Assembly (NCBI RefSeq): GCF_000447205.1
Contig: NZ_AUWY01000100.1
Location: 1 to 64,000, forward strand
Direction: 5' to 3'
Source: Sphingobium ummariense RL-3
Lineage (GTDB): Bacteria > Pseudomonadota > Alphaproteobacteria > Sphingomonadales > Sphingomonadaceae
DNA length: 64,000 bases
Positions 53,521-64,000 of this stretch are shown in pieces. Below the pieces are notes generated by a model that was given only the letters and a program-made list of their open reading frames with translations, did no database searches and was not told the DNA's origin. Positions within the stretch are counted from its first letter, which is position 1, and every line of letters begins with the position of its first letter. Both the position numbers and the translations under genes were made by a program.

Positions 53521-53718
53521 ATGCCTCATGTTCAAAACATCGTAATCCTTACGGGCGCGGGCATTTCCGCGGAAAGCGGGCTCGCGACCTTCCGTGGTCC
53601 TGATGGGTTGTGGGAAGGGCACCGTGTCGAGGATGTCTGTACACCGGAGGCGCTGGAGCGCGACGCGGCGCTGGTGCACCGCTTCTATGACGAGCGGCGC
53701 GCGAAGCTTGCTGAGTGA
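53521..53718 (+). pseudogene. cobB: Sirtuin (NAD-dependent deacylase) N-terminal fragment, cut by prophage
   Basis: Sixty-five codons survive: [20 protein letters not shown] carries the NAD-binding GAGISAESG motif, followed by FRGPDGLW and [10 protein letters not shown]. Sirtuins of this class are about 230-240 residues and need the downstream HG and zinc or cysteine regions, so this fragment is inactive. Host sequence ends at 53715. The TGA stop at 53716-53718 is the first three bases of the prophage. The rest of the gene should be found at the other prophage end, beyond the window. Confidence 0.9.
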
Positions 53719-54041
53719 AGCGCGACAAAAGCTTTTAGAGCGTGGGACAAGAGTTTTTGTAGCACCGCGCTAGGGGAAGCGCCCCCGCGCCGGAAGCTCC
53801 GTTGTGACAGACTTTTCAAAGAGCCGTAAGAGGCCTCTCAGGCGCCTTTTAGCCAGAGGCAGGAGCCGTTGGTCTGGGACGGCGGGAGGCGCGACGATAA
53901 AACGCCCCCCGCCGTTTGCGGCGCATGATCAGCTACGCACGCAACATGGGGAGATGCATTCCCATGCCCAAAGCGAAAGCGAGGAGGCCCGTACCGGCCC
54001 GTAAGAGGTGGCTAAGGCGCGGATGCTGCACGGCGGGGTCA
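53716..54041. other. Prophage right-end region with repeated transposase-binding-like sites
   Basis: 326 bp without a gene. Three related motifs of the form GACAnnnnnTTTTnnAGnnC occur at 53723-53741, 53744-53763 and 53804-53825, like the R1-R3 MuA sites of Mu. A GC-rich hairpin at about 53878-53912 could terminate leftward transcription of the tape measure gene. A 39-codon ORF overlapping the tape measure stop is present but unsupported. Confidence 0.7.
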
Positions 54042-55592
54042 TCATGCGAAAGCCCCCATGGCGCGGCCGGTGTTGACGTCTACGTCCATACCCGTAGCAA
54101 CCACCTTCTGCGTCTTCACGGAAACGCCCCGATCGGCGCTCACATGAAGCGCGACCTGCGCCTTTTGCGGTTGTGGAGCTACAGCCGCTCCCTTGCGGGA
54201 TGGTGCCCGAGTTGCGCGCGTGTGGGGCCTCGCCTCCATCGAGTCGAAGAACGGGACGCCGTTCGATGAATTGCGCGCGGGTCGCCGATCCATAGTGTCG
54301 AAGAACGGCACACCGTTTGAAGGCTTCGGCTTTGCCTGCCGGGTCGCCCGGTCGCGCGCCTGCTGATACCCATGCAAGGCGTCTAGGCCGTTGCGAAGCG
54401 CGCGAAGCTGCGGCGGTAGCAAGGGCGTGATGTCGATCGCTCCGGCCTTTTGCTTGAGATAGACGGCCGCATTGGCGATGTCGCGGATGCCGTTGGCAAC
54501 AGTGCGGAAATCCCTTCCATATTGCTCCCACGGCTGATCCCCGATCACCTTCACCACGGACGTAAGCGCCTGGCTTGTGCTCTTCGCCCAGCTGTCCGCC
54601 GATCCATTGGCCTCGGCGTTTTCGAAAGCGGCGCCGGCCCGATCAAGCTGGCGCTTCACCTCGTCTCCGAAGCCGTTTTTCCACACCTTGACCGCCTGCT
54701 GTGACATTCGGTCGGTCAGGTTATTCCACTTGCCCAGCGTGGTCTTGGACAGAAGGTCGCCGCCTCCGCCGAACTTCTCCGCAAGGATTTGAAGCGTGGC
54801 GCGCTCGACCTCGTTGCCCGCCTTGTTGACGATCTTTACCATGTCTTTTCCAAGGCGATCGACATAGCGCAGCGTTACCTTGCCGTCCTTCTGGCTTGGC
54901 GTGATGCCGAACTCGCGCATGCGCTCATATTGCTCGGTCTTGGCGTCTGCGAGCATGCCGATCGCATCGTCATAGGTCTTGTTGAGGGCGGCAGCGGCAT
55001 CCCCGAGAGTCGCCAGCGAGCCGTTCATGGGATTGATGCCGGCGTTCCTCGCGTTGATGAACGCCTGCGTCACCTGGGCAAGGTCATAGGGCGTGTTGGC
55101 CGCGAACTTGGTGATCCAGTCCAAGTCCTTCTTGGCGGCGGCGGCGTTCCGGCCTTCCAGCCCGAACAGCTGCGTCTCGAAATTCTCTGACTGGATACCG
55201 GCGCTCATGATCTTGTACAGGCCACCGACTGCCGCCGCGCCGCCGATGGTGCCGGCAGTCAGCACGCCGCTGCGAAGCGCGCCACCGAGCAGGCCGCCCG
55301 CCTTGAACGCCAGCTTGCCCATTGTCGCGTCGGAAATCTCCATCCGACGTTCCAGGGCGAGCAGAGCGGCGCCGGCCCGTCGCGCGCCGGCCGCGACGCG
55401 CTGGCCCATGGTTTCGCCCGCTCTTCCCAGCCCGCGCGCCGATCGCTCGGAGCGCTCCATATGGCGTCCCATGGCGCCGATCGCCGCGCCGGTCGATTGG
55501 CTCGACCGCCCCGCTGCGGCAACGTCGCTACGGAACTTGTCGAGCGGCCGGCCAGTGCGGTTCACCGCTTCTAGGATGAGGCTAAGTTTCAC
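54042..55592 (-). CDS. Phage tail tape measure protein
   Basis: The 516-residue protein starts at GTG 55592 (VKLSLILEAVNRTGRPLDKF), overlapping the stop of the preceding small frame (GTGA). The N-terminus resembles tape measure starts, and an Ala/Gly/Arg-rich helical region (30-110) leads into a hydrophobic segment (GGLLGGALRSGVLTAGTIGG). A conserved globular block follows (FETQLFGLEGRNAAAAKKDL, NTPYDLAQVTQAFINARNAG). Two short repeats, NGVPFFDTMDRRP and NGVPFFDSMEARP, lie near the C-terminus. It is short for a tape measure and is the last gene before the prophage end. Confidence 0.82.
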   Translation of the reverse strand: MKLSLILEAVNRTGRPLDKFRSDVAAAGRSSQSTGAAIGAMGRHMERSERSARGLGRAGETMGQRVAAGARRAGAALLALERRMEISDATMGKLAFKAGGLLGGALRSGVLTAGTIGGAAAVGGLYKIMSAGIQSENFETQLFGLEGRNAAAAKKDLDWITKFAANTPYDLAQVTQAFINARNAGINPMNGSLATLGDAAAALNKTYDDAIGMLADAKTEQYERMREFGITPSQKDGKVTLRYVDRLGKDMVKIVNKAGNEVERATLQILAEKFGGGGDLLSKTTLGKWNNLTDRMSQQAVKVWKNGFGDEVKRQLDRAGAAFENAEANGSADSWAKSTSQALTSVVKVIGDQPWEQYGRDFRTVANGIRDIANAAVYLKQKAGAIDITPLLPPQLRALRNGLDALHGYQQARDRATRQAKPKPSNGVPFFDTMDRRPARNSSNGVPFFDSMEARPHTRATRAPSRKGAAVAPQPQKAQVALHVSADRGVSVKTQKVVATGMDVDVNTGRAMGAFA

Positions 55593-55750
55593 TCTTTCAT
55601 TTCCTTGGCGATGCGTTCCGCCTGGTCCAGCCAAAGCTCCAGCATTCTATCGTCCAGGGACAGCGCGTCGCGCAGCGCCATGCCGTGTCCCAGCACGAGG
55701 CTGCCTAGGAGATCGCGCCAGTTGCTGTACCAGGCTGCAAGAAATGACCG
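55589..55750 (-). CDS. Probable frameshift extension of the tail assembly chaperone
   Basis: After the gp41-like gene, the -1 frame stays open from about 55750 to a TGA at 55589-55591 and reads FLAAWYSNWRDLLGS then MALRDALSLDDRMLELWLDQ. This looks like the C-terminal extension made by programmed frameshifting in lambda G/GT-type and Mu-like tail chaperones. I see no classical slippery heptamer. Alternatively ATG 55681 starts a separate 30-residue protein. It overlaps the tape measure start by 4 nt. Confidence 0.5.
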   Translation of the reverse strand, partial: RSFLAAWYSNWRDLLGSLVLGHGMALRDALSLDDRMLELWLDQAERIAKEMKE

Positions 55751-56019
55751 AATATCTGGTCAATGCGCTCGCAATCGGCCGCGTCGATCTTGAGCAGCAC
55801 GACGCGCGGCTCGCCGGTCATGTCGGCGAGGATTCGCGCGACCTTCTCGGAATAGACGATCGGCTCGTCAAGGATGAGCCGATCGGCCAGGGTGAGGCGG
55901 CGCAGCTGGAGCGTTTCGAGTAGCTTTTCCTCCTCGCCCACCCGGTATTTCACGGGGTAGAGGAGGGTGTAGCGGTTGCTGCCGTCTAGGAACGGCGGCC
56001 GGTCTTTCGGGTCGCTCAT
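55705..56019 (-). CDS. Tail assembly chaperone, Mu gp41-like
   Basis: This 104-residue protein has the pattern YTLLYPVKYRVGEEEKLLETL-QLRRLTLADRLIL (given in two parts), then ARILADMTGEPRVVLLKIDA and a final DQIFGHFL. This matches gp41-family tail assembly proteins (substrate-binding chaperones for the tape measure). It is located directly upstream of the tape measure gene, as in Mu-like phages. The start ATG 56019 overlaps the preceding stop (ATGA). Confidence 0.75.
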   Translation of the reverse strand: MSDPKDRPPFLDGSNRYTLLYPVKYRVGEEEKLLETLQLRRLTLADRLILDEPIVYSEKVARILADMTGEPRVVLLKIDAADCERIDQIFGHFLQPGTATGAIS

Positions 56020-56309
56020 ATTGCGGTTTCCTTTGCTTGGACCGGCTCATTGCCCGGCCCTGCCTCGACCTCGCGAAACGCCGCTGCAAGGCCCCCACGA
56101 AGGTCGTAGGTGCGCAGGATGTCCTGCGGCACCTTCTTGCCGTCTCCGTCGCGCATGGAATGGTGGCAGGCCTTCACGAGCGTTTCGTCAGGCGGCGGCG
56201 CACCATCGGCAAGCGGGCTGAAATCGACCTTGTCGATGGTCCAGGGCCGGAGAGAACCGTTCACCCGCCGCGTGCTGGAGAGGGGAACGACATAGTGAAG
56301 CGTCAGCAT
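56016..56309 (-). CDS. Phage hypothetical protein (97 aa)
   Basis: It begins MLTLHYVVPLSSTRRVNGSL with AAGG upstream of ATG 56309. The only notable stretch is VKACHHSMRDGDGKK with a His pair. No family recognised. It is coupled to the tail chaperone gene by a 4-nt overlap, so a tail-related role is likely from position only. Confidence 0.65.
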   Translation of the reverse strand: MLTLHYVVPLSSTRRVNGSLRPWTIDKVDFSPLADGAPPPDETLVKACHHSMRDGDGKKVPQDILRTYDLRGGLAAAFREVEAGPGNEPVQAKETAI

Positions 56310-56344
56310 GATCGGGGCCTTGTGGTTCGAAGGGGGTATGCGGC

Positions 56345-56926
56345 TCAGTTGGCGGGCCTGACCGCGCCGATAGCGGCGTTGATCTCGTCTTTGAGACGCG
56401 TTGCCTCCGCCTCCAATTTGCGGAGCTTGCTATCGACTTCACGCAACTTCGCCATCCGATCCATTTTTTTCATGCCGTGCTTCGCGGCGGGCCAGATCCG
56501 TTCGACCATTGCAGGCAGTTGTGCCCGGATGATGTCACGCATAAAATAGGTCACGGCAGCGACGTCGATCTCCCTTTGATCCTTGCCAAGCGCGGAGAAT
56601 GGCAAAATAGCGCCCCTATCCGCAGCAGGGGGCATGCCGCCGATCATCAACAGGGACGGTTGGGCGTTCCCTACCTTCTCGGCGGCGCCAGGCTCGCGCA
56701 TCTCCCTATCGGAGAGGAACCAGGACATCCTTCCTAAAAAGCTCGCCTCGGCGTTAACCAGGCCACGCTCAAATGCCGCCACAATCTCCTCTGTGTGTAC
56801 TGGCGCCCATTCGATCTTATTGCGCTCGGCCTTTGCCTGTTCGATCTCTCCCGTGACCTGCGCCAGCTGGTTCTTGGTTGCGGCAAGCGCGCTGGCAAAG
56901 CCGTCGATCATTTCGCTCAGTGACAT
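56345..56926 (-). CDS. Phage hypothetical protein with terminal coiled coils (193 aa)
   Basis: ATG 56926 has AAAGGA upstream. Residues 1-40 (MSLSEMIDGFASALAATKNQ) and 155-190 (LREVDSKLRKLEAEATRLKD) are coiled-coil helices around a globular centre with MSWFLSDREMREPG. No match to a known family is recognised. It lies between protease I and the tail chaperone, where capsid or tail-tube genes would be expected in a complete Mu-like phage. Confidence 0.65.
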   Translation of the reverse strand: MSLSEMIDGFASALAATKNQLAQVTGEIEQAKAERNKIEWAPVHTEEIVAAFERGLVNAEASFLGRMSWFLSDREMREPGAAEKVGNAQPSLLMIGGMPPAADRGAILPFSALGKDQREIDVAAVTYFMRDIIRAQLPAMVERIWPAAKHGMKKMDRMAKLREVDSKLRKLEAEATRLKDEINAAIGAVRPAN

Positions 56927-56966
56927 GGTACGTCCTTTCAAAGGTGGGGTTGGAGGGCCGGCCGGG

Positions 56967-58043
56967 TCAGGCCTGCTGATCGTTCTTGGCGGCAAGGAAA
57001 TCCGCGTGGCTCATGCCGATCTTCGCGCAGACCGCGACCTCATCGGCCGACAGGGCCGTGAATTTGGCCGGGACTGGGACCTTGCGCGGCGACAAGCCGG
57101 CCGCGACGCCGGCCGGTACGTAAGGCTTGGCGGCAAGGAAATCGGCATGGCTCATGCCCAGCGCCGCGCACACTTCGATCTCTTCGGCCGACAAAGCCGC
57201 GTGCGTTGGCGGCATGGGTGCCCCGAGATGCAGGAGCGAGGCCGCTACCGCCACGGGCACGTCCAGCTTGGCGGCGAGGAAATCGGCATGACTTAGGTTG
57301 AGGGCCGCGCAGGCGGCGCGCTCGTCGGCGGACAGGCGCTCCATTCCCGTGCCCCGGTAGAAAGAGGCGGCGATGCCCGCGCGCTCCGCATCCTCCTCCA
57401 TCTGGCTGATTTTCAGTTGCAGGTAGGCGGCGAAGTCGATCCCTATCCTACGGGCATGGTGCTGCTCTTCTTCCGTCAAGGCTGTCTGAATTTCGCCCGG
57501 TGAGCCGCGCGCGGCTGCCTTCAGTTCCTCCAGCGTCAGCGGCTGGAATTCGCCTTCCACCAACCTACCGCCCATACGGATGGCAGCCGCGACGGCCGGC
57601 AAGTCGATCGCGCCGATCGTGACAAGGGCGGCGTTCTTTAGTTGCAGGACCTCGCCTGTCTTCCCCGCCAGGAAGAGGGGGCTTAGGTAACGATATTCGC
57701 GCGCGGCGATCTTCTGTGCGGCGGCGCTGGTCCATTCCACCTCGGCATAGATGCCGTCCGGTTCGGCGGTGAGGGAGGAGGCCTTTGCCCACCCGGCCGC
57801 GATTGCGGCCTGGTCCCGCTGCACGGCATGGCCGTAATCGAAATTGAAGTCTGCCGATCCCAGCCAGGCGCGCGTCGCGTCAACGATGCGCTCGGCATGC
57901 TGCTGGTCGCGGACAGTGTAGGGGCCGCGTCCGTCGCGCATTTCGATCCGCCCGACCGGCAGCAGCTTCACCCGGCGCGGGACGCCGCCAACCGGCGCCA
58001 TGTCGATCGGGCTGGCGGCCACCTCAATGAACAGATCAGACAT
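56967..58043 (-). CDS. Mu-like phage protease I (with C-terminal repeats)
   Basis: The 358-residue product starts at ATG 58043 (MSDLFIEVAASPI), with GGAAGGA 5-6 nt upstream. The protease domain carries FNFDYGHAVQRDQAAIAAGW near 68, YAEVEWTSAAAQKIAAREYR near 100 and YRYLSPLFLAGKTGEVLQL, the signature of Mu gpI-type prohead proteases. The C-terminal third has three repeats of about 45 residues with the core SHADFLAAK (near 240, 290 and 345), probably the scaffold portion. No capsid gene follows in the window. Confidence 0.88.
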   Translation of the reverse strand: MSDLFIEVAASPIDMAPVGGVPRRVKLLPVGRIEMRDGRGPYTVRDQQHAERIVDATRAWLGSADFNFDYGHAVQRDQAAIAAGWAKASSLTAEPDGIYAEVEWTSAAAQKIAAREYRYLSPLFLAGKTGEVLQLKNAALVTIGAIDLPAVAAAIRMGGRLVEGEFQPLTLEELKAAARGSPGEIQTALTEEEQHHARRIGIDFAAYLQLKISQMEEDAERAGIAASFYRGTGMERLSADERAACAALNLSHADFLAAKLDVPVAVAASLLHLGAPMPPTHAALSAEEIEVCAALGMSHADFLAAKPYVPAGVAAGLSPRKVPVPAKFTALSADEVAVCAKIGMSHADFLAAKNDQQA

Positions 58044-58102
58044 GGGCATTCCTTCCACGGGGAGGGCTTGGGCAAACGGCGGCGCGGGAGATGGTGAGGG
58101 CT

Positions 58103-58552
58103 TCAACCATACTGGTTCCAGCGCCGGCCCGTATCGAGTGCCGGCAATCTTCCGACAGCCCTCAGGCCCGCCGCTAGGAAACGGGCGTGGCGCTCGGACA
58201 TCCCGACCAGGGTGGCCACTTTCCTATTCGGGAGTCCTGCCAGCTTCGCCCACCGGATGACATTCTGGTCCGCGCGGTTCTTCGCCGTGCTAAGGCTGGG
58301 AACGTCGATGCTGCAGCCGCCAAGTTCCTCCGCGATCAGCTTCGCTTGGGCCACGCCAACGACTTGGGCGAGTTCGCAGTCGGGCGTTATGTTGCGCGGG
58401 ATGCGGACATAGATTACCGTCCCACCAAAGGCAGACTGGATTTTGTCCGCGACCTCTCGTCCGCATCTGCGCCGCGCGGTGGAAAGAATACATTGCCGGT
58501 CTGCATCATCCCAGACTTCATCACCGTCTTCGATGAACTCATTATCTATCAT
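58103..58552 (-). CDS. Mor-like transcriptional activator
   Basis: The 149-residue protein starts at ATG 58552 (MIDNEFIEDGDEVWDDADRQ); a start at 58723 with its own purine-rich site is possible. VADKIQSAFGGTVIYVRIPR near 38 resembles the Mor dimerisation strand (GG-x-x-IYIP). The C-terminal HTH is VIRWAKLAGLPNRKVATLVG then SERHARFLAAGL. Mor switches on the middle or late genes of Mu-like phages. An 18-bp perfect palindrome lies 53 bp upstream of this start. Confidence 0.72.
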   Translation of the reverse strand: MIDNEFIEDGDEVWDDADRQCILSTARRRCGREVADKIQSAFGGTVIYVRIPRNITPDCELAQVVGVAQAKLIAEELGGCSIDVPSLSTAKNRADQNVIRWAKLAGLPNRKVATLVGMSERHARFLAAGLRAVGRLPALDTGRRWNQYG

Positions 58553-58604
58553 CGCCGTCCCTTTCCTGACGACGAATAGATAACCGGAGAAACCTCCTAC
58601 TACA

Positions 58605-58622
58605 GGAGGAGATATCTCCTCC
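58605..58622. promoter_or_regulatory. 18-bp perfect palindrome upstream of Mor-like gene
   Basis: GGAGGAGATATCTCCTCC is its own reverse complement. Just beside it CCTCCT-ACTAC-AGGAGG forms a second inverted repeat sharing the same arm. The site lies between the two Mor-like genes and could be an operator or activator site controlling the downstream late genes. Confidence 0.6.
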
Positions 58623-58829
58623 CGATGCTCTATTAGCGGGCGCTTTCGCTTCATCGAACGCCAAGTCGCGCCGATTTTCACCGCGCCATTGACCGGAACG
58701 GCAGTGGTGAGGGGATTAAGCATGGGCCGCCCCCTTTGAGGACGGCGGCAGCAGCCCGCGTGGGCCGTGCTTGACGCGCCGGGCAACGGCTGAAATCGCT
58801 TTGGATGCAGCGGAGCGCTCTGCAAGGGA

Positions 58830-59510
58830 TCAAGCATGACCGCGTGCCCTGGTCGTGGGCGCCGCGTAGAGCCCTGCCGTTTCGGGAAGCGCGGCCGGCG
58901 ACAGATACCCGGCCCGGCGCAGCCTGCCGACGATATAAAGTACCTGTTGCCGCTCGCCGCCGATCAGCCCGGCCACGGTATCGGTGCCAAGGCCAGCCAG
59001 CTTCGCCCAAGCGATCACTGGCCAACGTTGCTGCACATCGGAGCGCCCGCCGCACGTTATGTTTACGCGGCTTGCGGCCTCGGGGCAGGACGCGAAGCTT
59101 TCATAGCCCATAAGCCGCCATAAGGGCGACTGTTCCCGCTGGGGCAGTCTGCCGGCCGCGCGCGCGAGGGCGAGGATTTTGTAAACATAGGTCTCTGTGC
59201 AGTCGGCATGCCGGGCGGTTTCGCTGCGCGACAGCCCAATTCGCGCTGCCCAAAGGATAATCGCTTCTCGCGATTTCGTGGTAGGCCGGGGGACATAGTG
59301 GCTTGTCCGATGAAGTTCCGCGCAGACTTTCAGGGCCGCTTGCAGTCCGATTGCCCTTACGAGAGGGTGGGCGGCACGAATTGCGTTGGCCGCTGGAATA
59401 TAGATGCGCTGCCCTCCAAGTTGCTCTTTGAGGCTTTTCAGTGCATCATAACCAGCAACACGCGCAACGGTGTCAACGAGGCTGATACTGTCACTGTCGT
59501 CGCTCGGCAT
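58830..59510 (-). CDS. Mor-like regulator with a second C-terminal HTH half
   Basis: The 226-residue protein starts at ATG 59510 (MPSDDSDSISLVDTVARVAG) behind GGGGAG. ALKSLKEQLGGQRIYIPAAN near 25 is the Mor-type GG-x-x-IYIP strand. A first HTH is AARIGLSRSETARHADCTET then YVYKIL. After a linker a second HTH, AWAKLAGLGTDTVAGLIGGE, resembles the HTH of the neighbouring Mor-like gene. The layout suggests duplication of the HTH unit. Nearest known role is phage middle/late gene activation. Confidence 0.7.
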   Translation of the reverse strand: MPSDDSDSISLVDTVARVAGYDALKSLKEQLGGQRIYIPAANAIRAAHPLVRAIGLQAALKVCAELHRTSHYVPRPTTKSREAIILWAARIGLSRSETARHADCTETYVYKILALARAAGRLPQREQSPLWRLMGYESFASCPEAASRVNITCGGRSDVQQRWPVIAWAKLAGLGTDTVAGLIGGERQQVLYIVGRLRRAGYLSPAALPETAGLYAAPTTRARGHA

Positions 59511-60088
59511 GAGGGCTCCCCGCTTGGAAGCCTTGTTTAGATCAACTGTATGATGCGCCCTTACATCAACGCATTGAGGCGATCCGGGGGAATGTCGCCA
59601 CGCCGCGACAAGTGCCTGGTGGGCAATGTCGCGATGGCCTGACCGTCCGTAGCGCGGCGGGACGCGCGCCGGCTCGCCATTGAGAGGGGAGGCCGGGGCC
59701 TGAATATGCCCTAGGAGCGATTTAAAAGGGCCTAAGAGGGCAAGCGGGGGAAATTTCCGAAGGAATGGGCCTTGAGCGCCCCGCGCCCTTCTAGCGGGCA
59801 ATTTTCCGGCCTTATGCGTGTAATGGGCATGCCGGCCGGAATAAGGTGGGGTCCGAAGGGTGCCGGCAAGCCGGATCGGTTTGAGCACCCGAGTTCGGAA
59901 TGCTCCACAATCGGACCCCTCGCGGCGGCATAGCGCGCATCGCTTCGCGATGCAATCAACGAGGGGTTGTCCGCCTTCCGGGGGCGCCTGTGGTAGGCGT
60001 TGAAGCTGGCCTAGGCCGGTTGGATCGAGCGCCGCGAGTGGCGGCGCGCCACGGTCCTCCGGAGGCCTGAAAGGCACCCGGAGGAGCC
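59511..60088. other. 578-bp non-coding prophage region with strong hairpins
   Basis: No credible gene spans this gap; the frames open on both strands have atypical composition and no family signal. It contains nested complementary arms at 59848-59919, a tight hairpin at 59937-59953 and a GGAAATTTCC palindrome near 59750. It lies upstream of the first Mor-like gene and may hold its promoter, a structured RNA, or both. Confidence 0.6.
59848..59953. ncRNA. Candidate structured RNA element in prophage
   Basis: Outer stem: GGGGTCCGA (59848-59856) pairs with TCGGACCCC (59911-59919). Inside it, GGGTGC (59858-59863) pairs with GCACCC (59885-59890), and CCGGCAAGCCGG (59863-59874) can form its own hairpin. 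A separate hairpin GCATCGC-TTC-GCGATGC follows at 59937-59953. The strand is not determined. Nesting of three stems in 72 nt is more than expected by chance even at high GC, but no RNA family is recognised. Confidence 0.4.
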
Positions 60089-60325
60089 TTACGCGGCCCG
60101 CCTGCCCCGCTGATCGTCGGCGCCGGCAGCAGTGCATAGCTGGGCAATCCGCCCGAAGGCCCGCTCGGCCTTTTCAAGCCGTGCCTTTGCCGATCGGGCA
60201 ATCGCCTCTACAATGTCGATGCGCTCGCCAGCCATGTTCTCGATTGCGTCCAGCAGGCGCGCCAGATCAGCCTGTATCTCCATCACGTCGGCGACGTCGT
60301 CTATGAGCGAAGGGCCGTTGATCAT
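60089..60325 (-). CDS. Phage hypothetical protein, helical (78 aa)
   Basis: ATG 60325 overlaps the stop of the 54-codon gene before it (ATGA). The product is MINGPSLIDDVADVMEIQAD followed by long amphipathic helices (LARLLDAIENMAGERIDIVE). It is probably a coiled coil. No family is recognised. Position after the GH108-like gene would suit an accessory lysis or regulatory protein, without direct support. Confidence 0.65.
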   Translation of the reverse strand: MINGPSLIDDVADVMEIQADLARLLDAIENMAGERIDIVEAIARSAKARLEKAERAFGRIAQLCTAAGADDQRGRRAA

Positions 60326-60486
60326 TCTTCCGTTTCCTTCTTGATGGACCGTGCCCGCAAGCGCGCGATGGTCGCGGCGAACGCCGCCATGCGGGGGTCA
60401 AGCTCTTCCGATTGCGCGTTGCGCCTTGCGCAGGCCGGCGCAGCGATATGGCGGAGGGAACCCGCCTCCATGGCCGGCCTACGCAT
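60322..60486 (-). CDS. Small coupled phage protein (54 aa)
   Basis: A 54-codon ORF begins at ATG 60486, overlapping the end of the GH108-like gene by 8 nt, and ends TGA 60322-60324 inside the next start codon (ATGA). It reads MRRPAMEAGSLRHIAAPACA, then a helical C-terminus (MAAFAATIARLRARSIKKET). The overlaps at both ends are the main evidence that it is translated. Function unknown. Confidence 0.55.
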   Translation of the reverse strand: MRRPAMEAGSLRHIAAPACARRNAQSEELDPRMAAFAATIARLRARSIKKETEE

Positions 60487-61459
60487 CGCCGCCGCTCCAC
60501 CCGCCCAGCCCCTTCAACCGATCGACCGTCGCGGCCAAGCCGCCCGGCGCCGGTTGTGCGAGTGTGGCGGCGCCGGTCGATCGGTATTGAGCCTTGGCCG
60601 CCTCCTGGTAGGCGATTTTCAGCACGGGCATCCCCGAGGCTGCATTGGCAAGCACGACGTCCAGCGCCGCCCTCGTCTTCTCGCCCAGGATGCCATCAAC
60701 TTTCAGCGGCGGAAGCGCGATCAGGAACTTGGCCAAGCAGCCGTTGAGCGCCCGTTGCAGCAGCTTCTTCGCCGTGACCGGGTCGCCGTTGACGCCTAGA
60801 TCGAACAGCATTTCACCGATCGGGCGCGGGAAGCTCTCCGCGTCGAGGCGCTGCCAGATGCGGGCCAACTCCACCGTGGCGGCAAATCCGCGCCGTGCGG
60901 GCCGCGCTATGTTGGCGGCAAGGCTTCCAGGCGCCGGTCGCGAGGCAGCCTCCAGTCGGCTCGGTCGCGCAACGGCGGCCTCCAGCCGTCCCGGCAATGC
61001 GAGCGCGCCCGGCCGATCCCACCGGACGCGATCGGCGGCCTCGCTCCACCGGCTGGCCTGCGCGCGCTCGAACGAGGCCCGAAGGCTCCCCCAAGCGCCC
61101 GTCACGCGGTCGCGATTCGCGATCACATGGGCGGCGCGCTCGTCTGCACTGTCGGGAATCGCACCGCGATATTTCCGGGTTGCCCAGGGTGGGCAGCGCG
61201 GCGCGTCCACATAGTCATGGACGGCGTGCATGCCCTTGGGCGTGTAGGCCTCCACAAGCTCGCTCGTGCGCCCGCGCTCCACCGCAGCCGCCCATTCATG
61301 ATAGGGGATTTTCAGGACTAGCCGGGCCTTCAAATCCTGCGCGCGGCGGGCGCGGCGGATAGCGTCGGCGGTCTGCGCCTGAATGTCGCCGATGCGCTCG
61401 GCAAGCGCCCGGTTGGAAAACGAGTTGTGATTGGTCGGGATAGGTGCGTGCATGCCCAT
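60479..61459 (-). CDS. Phage protein with GH108-type C-terminal (peptidoglycan-binding) half, no catalytic N-terminus
   Basis: The 326-residue protein starts at ATG 61459 behind AGAGGGA. The C-terminal part matches N-acetylmuramidase (ZliS, GH108) C-termini: GEMLFDLGVNGDPVTAKKLL near 220, then LKVDGILGEKTRAALD near 260 (PG_binding_3-like). The usual N-terminal catalytic motif with EGG is absent. Instead residues 1-140 are an unrelated helical region (FSNRALAERIGDIQAQTADA). A linker at 140-200 has repeats of the type RPxRLEAA. Either a lysin that lost its catalytic part or a repurposed wall-binding protein. Confidence 0.65.
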   Translation of the reverse strand: MGMHAPIPTNHNSFSNRALAERIGDIQAQTADAIRRARRAQDLKARLVLKIPYHEWAAAVERGRTSELVEAYTPKGMHAVHDYVDAPRCPPWATRKYRGAIPDSADERAAHVIANRDRVTGAWGSLRASFERAQASRWSEAADRVRWDRPGALALPGRLEAAVARPSRLEAASRPAPGSLAANIARPARRGFAATVELARIWQRLDAESFPRPIGEMLFDLGVNGDPVTAKKLLQRALNGCLAKFLIALPPLKVDGILGEKTRAALDVVLANAASGMPVLKIAYQEAAKAQYRSTGAATLAQPAPGGLAATVDRLKGLGGWSGGDA

Positions 61460-61475
61460 GGGGAATCCCTCTGCC

Positions 61476-62294
61476 TCAGGTGAGTGACGAAAATCGGTGG
61501 ATGACGCCGCTGGACTGGGGGCGCCGGGAACGAAGCCGTGCGCCGCGCGGGTCGCTTGGCGTGAAAGCCTGATACGCGGTGCAAAACTGCACCCGCGTAG
61601 GGTCGCCGGCCGATACGAGTGCAAACTTTGCACGCGTATGCCCGCACGCCCGAGCCATAGTGCGGACACCTTGTCCGCAGTATCCGGCGGGATGGATGCC
61701 AGTGCAAAGTTTGCACTGGCACGGCGGCTCGGAAAGGGCCGGTGCAGCGGCAGACGTTGCCGCTGCACCGGGGCGGAGGGATAGTGGTGCCAAGTTGGCA
61801 CGGCTATCGGCGCGGCCGCATGCCAGTGCCAACTTGGCACTGGCATGGCGAAGCGTGGCGCTCGCCTCCTGTACGGCGGACATGATGTCCGCCGTATTGC
61901 GATCTCCCCATGCGACTGCCGGGATGGCAGACGCATGCCCTGCCGCTACCGGCCGCGCCGATGCGAGGGTAAAAATTACCCGCGTATCAGCCAACGGCGG
62001 CGCCAGCCCGTCCGACGTGAAGTCGTGAAGTGGGGTAAAGATTACCCGACTATCGGCTGACGACCGCGCCGCCTGGGCGGCATACGGCGGCAAAGATTTC
62101 CGCCGTATCGGCCCGCCCGATAGTCGGCTCAATTTGGGCGGACTATGCCGGGGCGTTGCGGGTTCGCAGGGCGTTGCCGCGCGGCTATACTGCGGCAAAG
62201 ATTTCCGCAGTATCGGCCCGGACCATACGCGGCTCAAAATGAGCCGCGTATGGTCCAGGGCAGCGGTCGGAGCGGATTGGAAGCGGGCCGCCAT
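61476..62294 (-). CDS. ORF spanning the palindrome array (272 aa), coding status uncertain
   Basis: The frame is open for 272 codons from ATG 62294, which lies one base after the stop of the preceding gene (TGA-C-ATG, the same junction as the gene before). The product is low-complexity with recurring short peptides such as DTRVIFT, DSRVIFT, RRKSLPPY and LRKSLPQY that simply reflect the palindromes. Because 5 of 15 palindromes are in other phases, no consistent peptide repeat results. Long frames are also open on the other strand. It may be translated, but the DNA or RNA structure is the more convincing feature. Confidence 0.4.
   Translation of the reverse strand: MAARFQSAPTAALDHTRLILSRVWSGPILRKSLPQYSRAATPCEPATPRHSPPKLSRLSGGPIRRKSLPPYAAQAARSSADSRVIFTPLHDFTSDGLAPPLADTRVIFTLASARPVAAGHASAIPAVAWGDRNTADIMSAVQEASATLRHASAKLALACGRADSRANLAPLSLRPGAAATSAAAPALSEPPCQCKLCTGIHPAGYCGQGVRTMARACGHTRAKFALVSAGDPTRVQFCTAYQAFTPSDPRGARLRSRRPQSSGVIHRFSSLT
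61572..62255. repeat. Array of 15 diversified 27-bp palindromes
   Basis: Units at 61572-61598, 61613-61639, 61657-61683, 61696-61722, 61739-61771, 61781-61807, 61819-61847, 61871-61897, 61909-61937, 61961-61987, 62027-62053, 62082-62108, 62120-62146, 62187-62213 and 62221-62255. Most are 27 bp, begin ATAN or ATGC and end in the complement. Arms reach 14 bp (61819-61847, one-base centre) and 16 bp (62221-62255, AAA centre). Stems differ: GTGCAAA, GTGCCAA, GGGTAA, GGCTCA, GCGGACA, CGGCAAA and others. Modal centre spacing is 38-39 bp. Several have TATCGGCC on one side. No matching element class is known to me. Confidence 0.92.
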
Positions 62295-62295
62295 G

Positions 62296-62619
62296 TCAGT
62301 TCACCGCTCCGGCGCCGGCCACCAGATCGGCGACGCTGTGAATGTTCCCCGCTTGGATCAAGTCCGCGACCTTGCCGATAAGATCGCGGTCGAGCGCGGC
62401 GACGATGGACCGGACGGCAAGGCCATGCTCGCGCGCCCAATCCTGTTCCGTTGCCTCCTCCAGAAACCGGCGCAGACGCAGCTCCGCCACGGCGCTGGAC
62501 GCCGCGACCTCGCGCAGCGCCATGCCCAGCGCCAGCCCGGCAATGTCCATCAACTCGTCTTCCGACGTGTAGGAGCCAGCGGACTGGAGCAGCGCGGCGG
62601 GGTTTTGCGGGGGCGCCAT
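62296..62619 (-). CDS. Phage hypothetical protein, paralogue of the gene upstream (107 aa)
   Basis: ATG 62619 follows TGA-C of the previous gene. The core LMDIAGLALGMALREVAASS and the later GLAVRSIVAALDRDLIGKVA align with YADIAGMKLSLALQEIAAMN and PLGARVIAGMLDDDI of the upstream product. Both are small acidic helical proteins ending in AN or VN followed by TGA-C-ATGGCG. A tandem duplication is evident. Function unknown. Confidence 0.7.
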   Translation of the reverse strand: MAPPQNPAALLQSAGSYTSEDELMDIAGLALGMALREVAASSAVAELRLRRFLEEATEQDWAREHGLAVRSIVAALDRDLIGKVADLIQAGNIHSVADLVAGAGAVN

Positions 62620-62620
62620 G

Positions 62621-62926
62621 TCAGTTCGCCCCATTGGGGCCGTAGACGGCGGCCCGTTGATCATCGTCGCCGAACAACACCTCGTAGAAAGCAATCCGAT
62701 GCTCGATATCATCGTCGAGCATGCCGGCGATGACGCGCGCCCCAAGCGGGTGAGCATCTCCCACAGCAAGGTCTAGCGCGTCGTTCAGAAGGTCGGCGAT
62801 AGAACGCGCGACAGTGATGTTCATCGCGGCAATTTCTTGCAAAGCCAACGACAGTTTCATGCCGGCTATGTCGGCATAGGCTTGGTCCCTCAGCGAAGGG
62901 GCAGGATCATTGTCGGACGCGCTCAC
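62621..62926 (-). CDS. Phage hypothetical protein, tandem paralogue (101 aa)
   Basis: GTG 62926 overlaps the stop of the antirepressor-like gene (GTGA). The product is acidic and helical (YADIAGMKLSLALQEIAAMN; ARSIADLLNDALDLAVGDAH). It is homologous along its length to the next gene downstream. No domain is recognised. The position early in the leftward transcript suggests a regulatory or replication accessory role, which is only an inference. Confidence 0.7.
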   Translation of the reverse strand: MSASDNDPAPSLRDQAYADIAGMKLSLALQEIAAMNITVARSIADLLNDALDLAVGDAHPLGARVIAGMLDDDIEHRIAFYEVLFGDDDQRAAVYGPNGAN

Positions 62927-63648
62927 TTGTCGTCCACTCGCTGGAGGCGGGGCCGTGTGATGACGCCCGCCAACGGGTCCAGCGCCTCTTTCCAGAACCG
63001 GCCAAGGCTGGACCGCGAAGGCGCGCGGGATATCCCGAATTGCTCTTGCAGCTTTGCGACCGCGTCGCTGATCGTCATGCGGCGATGCAGAGCGACAACT
63101 GCCGCCATGACCGGCTCGTCGTGGTGCCACTTCGAATAGCGCTGGCGCCGGACGTTGCCTTGCGCGTCGGTGTAGCGGAAGACAGTGGGCGAGCGCGGTA
63201 GCGCCTGCGGCATGGCGGGGTTGGTCCACGCCTTGTGAGCATCCAAGATCGCCGACATATACTCGACCTTCTGCCGCAGGTCGGCCAACTCTTCGCGGGT
63301 CGGATCATAGACCGGCTCAGCTAGCCGGCCATGCCGCCACGCATAGAACACATCAGCCATCTGCTCCTGCACGGCATCAGCGTTGGGTGCCTCGCTCCAC
63401 ATGCAAAGCCGGTAGGCTTGTCGCTCGTTGAGGAAATATTGGGTCGTGGGGCGACCGCGCTGCCCATTTTGCACGCGCTGCGTGCAAATTGGTCCATGCT
63501 TGGAAAGGCGCGCCTCGTGCTTCTTGATCGTGTCGCGAATATTGCGCGGCTGAGCCATGCCCAGCACTTCACCAAGCCGCACATCCAGCACTCGCGGCTG
63601 TCCATCCATTTCGCGCAGATCGGTAGCGCATAAAACCAATGCACCCAT
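62923..63648 (-). CDS. Phage antirepressor-like protein with C-terminal HTH
   Basis: The 241-residue protein has an N-terminal block VRLGEVLGMAQPRNIRDTIK, GRPTTQYFLNERQAYRLCMW and QEQMADVFYAWRHGRL near 75-110. This resembles phage antirepressor/BRO- or Rha-type DNA-binding N-termini. The C-terminus MTISDAVAKLQEQFGISRAP then SRSSLGRFWKEAL is a helix-turn-helix like those of DUF3486 in Mu-like phages. It starts at ATG 63648, 2 bp after the Ner-like stop. Exact family uncertain. Confidence 0.6.
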   Translation of the reverse strand: MGALVLCATDLREMDGQPRVLDVRLGEVLGMAQPRNIRDTIKKHEARLSKHGPICTQRVQNGQRGRPTTQYFLNERQAYRLCMWSEAPNADAVQEQMADVFYAWRHGRLAEPVYDPTREELADLRQKVEYMSAILDAHKAWTNPAMPQALPRSPTVFRYTDAQGNVRRQRYSKWHHDEPVMAAVVALHRRMTISDAVAKLQEQFGISRAPSRSSLGRFWKEALDPLAGVITRPRLQRVDDK

Positions 63649-63650
63649 GT

Positions 63651-63941
63651 CTAGATCACCCCCGCATTTTGACGGTGCGTTGCCTTGGGCTTTCGGCTAA
63701 CAGCGTGGGTGACGAGTTTTTTGTAATAGTGGGTGGACACGCGATGCAGAGGGATATTCAGTTCATCCGCGATTGCCTGCGCCGTAACCAGCCACGGCGT
63801 ATCGAAGTTGATGACGCGAGAGACCGAACCGACTTGCAGGCCTTTTTCCAGTTCGAACCGCTTCATTGTGCGGTAGCGCATGCGAATGCGCGCCTTAATT
63901 TCTTCCGGGTGAACGGGGCCGTCCATAGGCTGATGGATCAT
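63651..63941 (-). CDS. Ner/Nlp-like helix-turn-helix regulator
   Basis: The 96-residue protein starts at ATG 63941 with GGAG 8-9 nt upstream (MIHQPMDGPVHPEEIKARIR). The HTH RYRTMKRFELEKGLQVGSVS then AQAIADELNIPLHRVSTHYY matches Ner/Nlp (SfsB) winged HTH proteins, which in Mu repress early transcription. In Mu ner lies just before A and B; here the next genes downstream are antirepressor-like, so the order differs. Confidence 0.68.
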   Translation of the reverse strand: MIHQPMDGPVHPEEIKARIRMRYRTMKRFELEKGLQVGSVSRVINFDTPWLVTAQAIADELNIPLHRVSTHYYKKLVTHAVSRKPKATHRQNAGVI

Positions 63942-64000
63942 CACGCTTTCTCCATAACAAGTCGATAACATCGCGATTTGTTATGGAATTGTCAAACGAC

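Follow-up and report, generated by a model that had tools for sequence, protein, structure and literature searches.

An array of fifteen palindromes in a Mu-ended element of Sphingobium ummariense as a candidate library of phage ParB sites

Introduction

What purpose is served by a row of short palindromes that all differ from one another and are all self-complementary? A locus in Sphingobium ummariense RL-3 raises this question. The stretch of DNA that we analysed, referred to as the window, comprises positions 1-64000 of contig C100 of the 4.75-Mb genome; the locus is an array of palindromes at 61572-62251, carried by a short element with Mu-type ends that extends beyond the window. A sequence-only reading of the window had described the array and had offered a hairpin RNA array, decoy operators, sites for a site-specific protein or a central site like the Mu gyrase site as possible roles. 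We found that the palindromes resemble single sites located within the parB genes of Mu-like phages, and we consider it probable that together they form a polyvalent collection of parS-like sites serving the ParB-family clamp proteins of such phages.

The array

The array contains 15 palindromic units, and the earlier statement that most of them are 27 bp long holds for 14, each with one central base. When palindromes were scored as matches minus mismatches, positions 61560-62260 contained 13 centred palindromes with a score of at least 8 and five with a score of at least 12. Dinucleotide shuffles of this interval (n=200), a control that the sequence-only reading had asked for, gave a mean of 0.6 and a maximum of five palindromes at the lower threshold and none at the higher one, far below the numbers in the array. 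The 14 regular units have 9-13 of 13 positions paired, and unit 1 at 61572 is off register through one inserted base. Two details of the original description were only partly retained. Unit centres are 38-67 bp apart, with the proposed modal spacing of 38 or 39 bp in 6/14 cases, and the proposed ATAN...NTAT ends are represented by a plus-strand left end of ATA in eight units, the other seven having ATG, GTG, GTA or GAA. The linkers between units are 11-40 bp long and GC-rich.

The stems had been said to vary while staying self-complementary, and covariation analysis of the unit alignment bore this out. We observed 46 two-sided stem changes among the 182 cells of the 14-unit alignment from which unit 1 was excluded. 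The covariation score of this alignment was 0.681. Shuffling lowered it to 0.229 (none of 500 shuffles reached the observed score), and sliding the alignment gave no more than 0.151. The inner arms listed previously as recurring in different units were present, in keeping with the combinatorial appearance noted at the time. The inner arms of the 14 regular units fall into seven classes (GTGCAA, CGGACA, CGGCAA, GTGCCA, CTGCCA, GGGTAA and GGCTCA). Relative to the longest open reading frame (ORF) on the minus strand, the units are distributed over the three phases as 10, 3 and 2 of 15, which agrees with the earlier count of about 10 units in one phase and five outside it.

Palindromes inside phage parB genes

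A covariance model built from the 14 regular units only (R1) was run on the genome itself together with 61 relatives, and on 396 genomes of the order, 94 of the genus and 397 of the family, these sets being overlapping. Outside the array, R1 matched 15 places with E<=1e-6, 14 of which lie in one parB-like type of early gene belonging to Mu-like phages. Matches weaker than about 1e-5 were mostly palindromes outside ParB genes, several of them terminator-like, and included one ParB (L177; handles of this form denote individual loci).

Protein and model searches together yielded 86 loci. Four loci without a ParB match were dropped and identical proteins were collapsed to 69, from which one fragment (L081) was removed and to which five genes found with R1 were added, resulting in a set of 73 parB genes. 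The palindrome occupies the same codons, just upstream of those for the helix-turn-helix (HTH), and its stems and the encoded residues change together. At this expected position a palindrome with at least 10/13 paired positions was present in 63/73 genes, and one with at least 9/13 in 69/73, whereas the best palindrome elsewhere in the same gene averaged 8.9 and reached 10 in 14/73. When the nine genes first found via the palindrome were left out, the corresponding values were 54/64 and 60/64. Among 69 of the parB genes there are 27 different inner arms. The site occurs in ParBs of both the sphingomonad type and the rhizobial type, in differing codon phases, and its carriers include Sinorhizobium phages Aussie and StopSmel, Rhizobium phage RR1-B and Ochrobactrum phage POA1180. 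Each of these four phages encodes ParB upstream of the annotated transposase genes, and in Aussie and StopSmel it is also downstream of Ner. The ParB relative L083, from a congeneric genome, has the same identity and the same site as that of a Sphingobium faniae record (L071).

Both the alignment profile and the fold identify the proteins with single sites as ParB, and they have a ParB N-domain and an HTH. Their alignment profile matched ParB, Noc and KorB chains (best E 5e-17), and the best ParB match in Foldseek was 4e-9, with low template modelling scores (0.2-0.5). The ParB of a fuller Mu-like prophage on contig C80 of the same genome (L028:7293-8543) matched the ParB-like family phrog_3264 with an E of 2e-21; Pfam ParB_N scored above its cut-off in L090 and just below it in L089. 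The C80 protein also has a C-terminal ROS/MUCR domain like that of regulators in most of the family genomes searched, and an early genome search for ParB with the full 416-residue query returned mostly matches to this tail. In a structure model of the L071 protein the mean predicted local distance difference test score was 77.6, the site-encoded residues 173-182 being partly in a low-confidence linker (below 50 at 169-175).

Recognition helix and inner arm

We examined the relationship between the palindromes and the adjacent HTH in 57 genes, which remained of the 73 when genes below 9/13 and near-identical ones were dropped. Helix positions were counted from the G in the turn of the HTH, which was set to 0. 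An Arg in position 8 of the helix was accompanied by CA at site positions 11-12 in 29/29 genes, and CA was found without Arg in 1/28, for a concordance of 56/57 (Fisher 2e-15). When pairs were shuffled within clusters of N-domain similarity, none of 5000 trials reached the observed value at any of the four thresholds used (p 0.0002). A scan of the alignment columns outside -45 to -8 paired site positions 7-8 most strongly with helix column 7, positions 9-10 with column 4 and position 11 with column 8. Lys in column 7 occurred with GGG or GGC in 23/28 genes, Arg with CGG in 8/9, Glu with CCG, ACG or ACC in 9/9, and an aromatic residue or His with GTG, ATG or CTG in 8/9. The GGGTAA class is found with SVKKD in sphingomonad-type ParBs and with TYKLV in rhizobial-type ones.

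A natural switch was seen between the ParBs of Aussie (L089:4555-5382) and StopSmel (L091:2876-3703). These proteins are 78% identical, and their sites and helices differ together, GGGCAC with TTYKKV in the former versus GGGTAA with ETYKLV in the latter.

Pattern scans of viral contigs with three site classes identified 17 loci. Eight of them are ParB genes, of which four were new (L187, L194, L195 and L198), and all four new ParBs obey the helix rule. The other nine loci had no ParB match and their symmetry was incomplete outside the core. In weak HMMER alignments (3-5 bits), column 8 coincided with the N in the HTH of Noc/Spo0J. By this mapping of our own, column 8 may be the equivalent of N178 of Caulobacter ParB, a residue that is reported to touch parS (PMC7383237). 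The covariation of palindrome and recognition helix was observed on parB sites; the array has no ParB beside it.

Array units and parB sites

By sequence, the array units correspond in kind to the lone palindrome within the phages' own parB genes. Counting either strand, the inner arms of all 14 regular units were found in parB genes, and those of 12/14 were found on the plus strand, whereas a null that recombined array columns at random gave 0.31 per unit (binomial 4e-5; the test used a typed list of 11 arms). Our conclusions use this test, a comparison of whole 27-mers being the weaker one. A second covariance model, built from 38 parB sites only (R2), was run over 491 kb consisting of the window and the phage loci, and at E<=0.05 it found 11/15 array units. 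Apart from these, it matched a single parB site in each phage, many of these sites belonging to the R2 training set, and one non-ParB locus. In 385 genomes of the class, R2 matched five loci beyond the genome itself, none of them ParB and four terminator-like. The site of the C80 prophage is of the GGGTAA class, the class of units 10 and 11. The element has no detected ParB and has sites matching the class of a co-resident ParB. The units are compared with parB sites in Table 1.

Table 1. Array units compared with phage parB sites, and other features of the element within the window
Feature	Position	Strand	Description	Relation to parB sites
Unit 1	61572..61599		inner arm GTGCA(A/G), one inserted base	inner arm without exact parB match
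Unit 2	61613..61639		inner arm GTGCAA	1/27 bases off L075 site; same A/G mismatch at pair 6/22
Unit 3	61657..61683		inner arm CGGACA	4/27 off L084/L174 sites; inner arm identical
Unit 4	61696..61722		inner arm GTGCAA	same inner arm in L075, L086
Unit 5	61742..61768		inner arm CGGCAG/CGGCAA	minus-strand inner arm shared with L030, L042
Unit 6	61781..61807		inner arm GTGCCA	inner 15 bp identical to L080 site
Unit 7	61820..61846		inner arm GTGCCA	2/27 off L080 site; top R2 match in window
Unit 8	61871..61897		inner arm CGGACA	2/27 off L084/L174 sites
Unit 9	61910..61936		inner arm CTGCCG/CTGCCA	minus-strand inner arm shared with L172
Unit 10	61961..61987		inner arm GGGTAA	3/27 off site of same-genome C80 prophage (L028)
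Unit 11	62027..62053		inner arm GGGTAA	4/27 off L031 site
Unit 12	62082..62108		inner arm CGGCAA/CGGAAA	CGGCAA shared with L030, L077
Unit 13	62120..62146		inner arm GGCTCA/CGCCCA	GGCTCA shared with L070, L071
Unit 14	62187..62213		inner arm CGGCAA/CGGAAA	4/27 off L078 site
Unit 15	62225..62251		inner arm GGCTCA	0/27 off L070 site (IMG/VR 3300014663_000002)
Mu-ended element	53716..64000		part inside window	
Tail protein	54042..55634	-	tape measure protein, 530 aa	
Protease	56967..58106	-	head maturation protease	
Late activator	58103..58837	-	second Mor-like late activator	
Late activator	58830..60137	-	Mor-like; true start probably internal	
326-aa ORF	60479..61459	-	residues 201-302 like C-terminal part of C80 phage endolysin; N-terminal part unmatched	
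107-aa ORF	62296..62619	-	no convincing family; stops just ahead of array	
101-aa ORF	62621..62926	-	no convincing family	
241-aa ORF	62923..63648	-	Bro-N / antirepressor-like, under Pfam cut-off	
Regulator	63651..63971	-	Ner-like, HTH_35	

The element carrying the array

The array is held by an element of 11,845 bp (C100 53716-65560) with Mu-type ends (TGAAGCGCGACAAAAGC... and TGAAAGGGGACACGAGG...), and its insertion duplicated 5 bp of the target, CTGAG. It interrupts a host gene that we take from its sequence to be sir2-like, and the two halves of this gene are at 53528-53715 of the window and at L093:2562-3070. In addition to the genes in Table 1, the element encodes a repressor-like protein (in L093, past the window edge) and a tail protein. 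The fuller phage on C80, itself truncated by the contig end, encodes a Mu transposase, a MuB-like protein, an endolysin, terminase, portal, protease and the major head protein. No match to its ParB, transposase A and B, terminase, portal or capsid proteins was found in the element at E<=1e-4. Tandem Mor-like late activators are present at 58103-60137. No capsid or terminase gene was detected in the element.

The 326-aa ORF joins the C-terminal part of an endolysin in frame to an unmatched stretch and is possibly a deletion junction beside the array. In 94 genus genomes this protein matched only itself and the C80 endolysin, and searches of viral contigs returned no relatives of it or of the 241-aa protein. 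These searches thus yielded no homologous array loci for the unit-by-unit alignment proposed in the sequence-only reading. The array sits in the early operon, in the position that ParB and transposase genes have in fuller relatives.

Genome G022 contains two ParB-bearing Mu-ended elements on contig C1, one of 22.4 kb at 4208961-4231397 (L119/L029) and one of 20.1 kb at 336901-357006 (L030/L120), with target duplications TTTGC and TTCAC, respectively. Both differ from the R end of the carrier of the array at 3/27 positions, and from its L end at five and six positions; shuffled sequence gave at least 10 mismatches per 19 kb. These common ends are compatible with mobilisation of the carrier by such phages. 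In the first G022 element a fragment of transposase A adjoins the C-terminal part of the protease, and in the second ParB is the sole C80 protein with a match. Since both elements are short and one has the transposase A fragment at the protease end, internal deletion seems common among them. The intact ends, the 5-bp duplication and the ends common to ParB elements are as compatible with a decayed prophage as with a phage satellite.

Discussion

Our model predicts that each unit binds a ParB whose helix suits the inner arm of that unit. The ParB of a resident or incoming Mu-like phage would load on the array and spread along the element; loading at a site followed by spreading is described for ParB clamps (PMC12704722). 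Loading on the array would divert ParB from the single site of the phage, or would let the element, which has no detected ParB, borrow the ParB function of that phage, or both. Diversion and borrowing may coincide, as reported for Salmonella genomic island 1 (SGI1) and IncC plasmids. On a broader proposal our confidence is evenly divided: that the library of this element, fifteen ParB-site mimics in seven classes, serves to capture ParB from many of the host group's Mu-like phages, for immunity, hitch-hiking or both, and that alphaproteobacterial Mu-like phages carry within parB a site-plus-reader cassette whose variants spell a ParB-DNA code. The likeness to parB sites supports the earlier view that selection acts on symmetry and not on a peptide. 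Together with the tracking of the helix, it also supports two of the earlier options, decoy operators for dimeric regulators and sites for a site-specific protein.

Several observations weigh against a library of ParB sites. The two ParB elements with known ends are also short, and the carrier may be a mere decayed prophage. One strong R1 match (L107:1501-1527, 2.5e-7) lies outside any ParB gene. Four of the 73 parB genes fall below 9/13, three of which (L145, L147 and L149) retain the inner arms and one of which (L169) is without a site. Single searches with Pfam ParB_N missed both L028 and L071. The Arg8-CA rule was first noticed by eye and scored afterwards in the same data, L088 is an exception to it and L177 deviates at site positions 7-9. 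When protein partners were sought for the outer arms, mainly columns that are encoded by the site or lie next to it came up. Whole 27-mers showed only a moderate excess, with 9/15 units at four or fewer differences from a parB site as compared with 0.21 per unit when array columns were recombined (binomial 0.001). Finally, no second cluster of matches was found in the 94 genus, 396 order and 397 family genomes with R1 or in the 385 class genomes with R2, under strict filters and in overlapping sets that include the genome itself.

The alternative that deserves most attention accepts the units as ParB-type sites and takes the array for a normal cis component of a single phage lineage, serving DNA organisation or early-gene regulation and now remaining in a decaying prophage, the diversity of arms reflecting relaxed or multi-ParB regulation and not the capture of competitors. 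We regard this explanation as rather unlikely. In its favour, the array occupies the early operon, and the two short ParB elements of G022 point to frequent deletion. However, seven inner-arm classes are more than would be expected for a single ParB, provided that the helix rule holds, and the other phage sequences examined have one site, located in parB. The latter observation also counts against the proposed central site of the Mu gyrase type. The strong self-complementarity and covariation speak for a hairpin RNA array, in which transcribed units act as structured or guide RNAs, but we judge this role to be improbable. G-U pairs account for 12/74 non-Watson-Crick cells in the array and parB-site alignments, where about 2 in 12 are expected in the absence of any preference for such pairs, and no Rfam family matched the array. 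Moreover, the symmetry persists within ParB coding sequence in several frames, and the inner arms follow a DNA-reading helix.

Palindromes located within genes also bring to mind a selfish element that inserts in genes and has multiplied here, like the palindromic elements of Rickettsia. This origin appears slightly more improbable still, in that the position within parB is fixed in 69/73 genes, the stems differ from one another instead of being copies, and they track the adjacent helix. Distant ParBs align without gaps at the palindrome position, but they likewise carry palindromes; filled and vacant positions with target duplications around individual units were not seen, no specific search having been made for them. 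Least probable of all is a gene for a repetitive peptide in which the palindromy arose by chance. One minus-strand frame is open for 272 codons and contains 10/15 units in one phase. Nevertheless, the other five units are out of phase, and GC content hardly varies among the three codon positions of the array (0.64/0.65/0.67), whereas six neighbouring genes dip at the second position (e.g. 0.68/0.46/0.74). The 272-aa ORF has no Pfam family and one PHROG match at E 0.04, nothing above chance.

If the array is a set of ParB sites, as we favour, it suggests a weapon or a passport in conflict among phages, one element docking the clamp proteins of many rivals. The parB sites suggest what the ParBs of Mu-like phages bind, a matter on which the passages available to us on phage diversity or ParB-fold diversity are silent. 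They also provide naturally varied pairs of ParB and site that can be read from sequence, with helix residues matchable to bases; an earlier study addressed a change of specificity with one ParB/Noc pair (PMC7383237). Among the open-licence papers listed in our searches, none described this array or sites within the parB of Mu-like phages.

Comparison with known systems

A close parallel is SGI1. Its parS-like sites are reported to hijack the ParABS system of IncC plasmids by binding ParB, which stabilises SGI1 and destabilises the helper (PMC10954446). In both cases a helper-dependent element would carry mimics of the ParB site of its partner. SGI1 has two sites directed at one helper family, whereas the element described here has fifteen putative sites in seven classes, is Mu-like and is known from sequence alone. 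In ParB with parS and in Noc with its binding sites, ParB-fold HTH proteins read a palindrome (PMC7383237), as the present ones would, and the column for site position 11 maps to N178. The present sites differ in being odd palindromes of 27 bp inside the parB of Mu-like phages, their inner arms being of 27 kinds in 69 genes.

Tandem interspaced guide RNA (TIGR) and CRISPR arrays likewise consist of short variable units arrayed in phage, but the units here are symmetric and of the protein-site type, and no effector was recognised among the element ORFs scanned. A CRISPR- or TIGR-like array was rejected: there are no constant repeats with unrelated spacers, and the units themselves vary symmetrically.

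P4 and the phage-inducible chromosomal islands offer another likeness, that of a small element without detected capsid or terminase in a genome that contains a larger related phage. For the present carrier, dependence on a helper is hypothetical, and decay by internal deletion is an equally possible origin. Plasmid centromere arrays of the sopC type consist of near-identical units for one protein. The array described here resembles them as a tandem array of what are probably partition-protein sites, and it differs from them in that its units belong to different classes.
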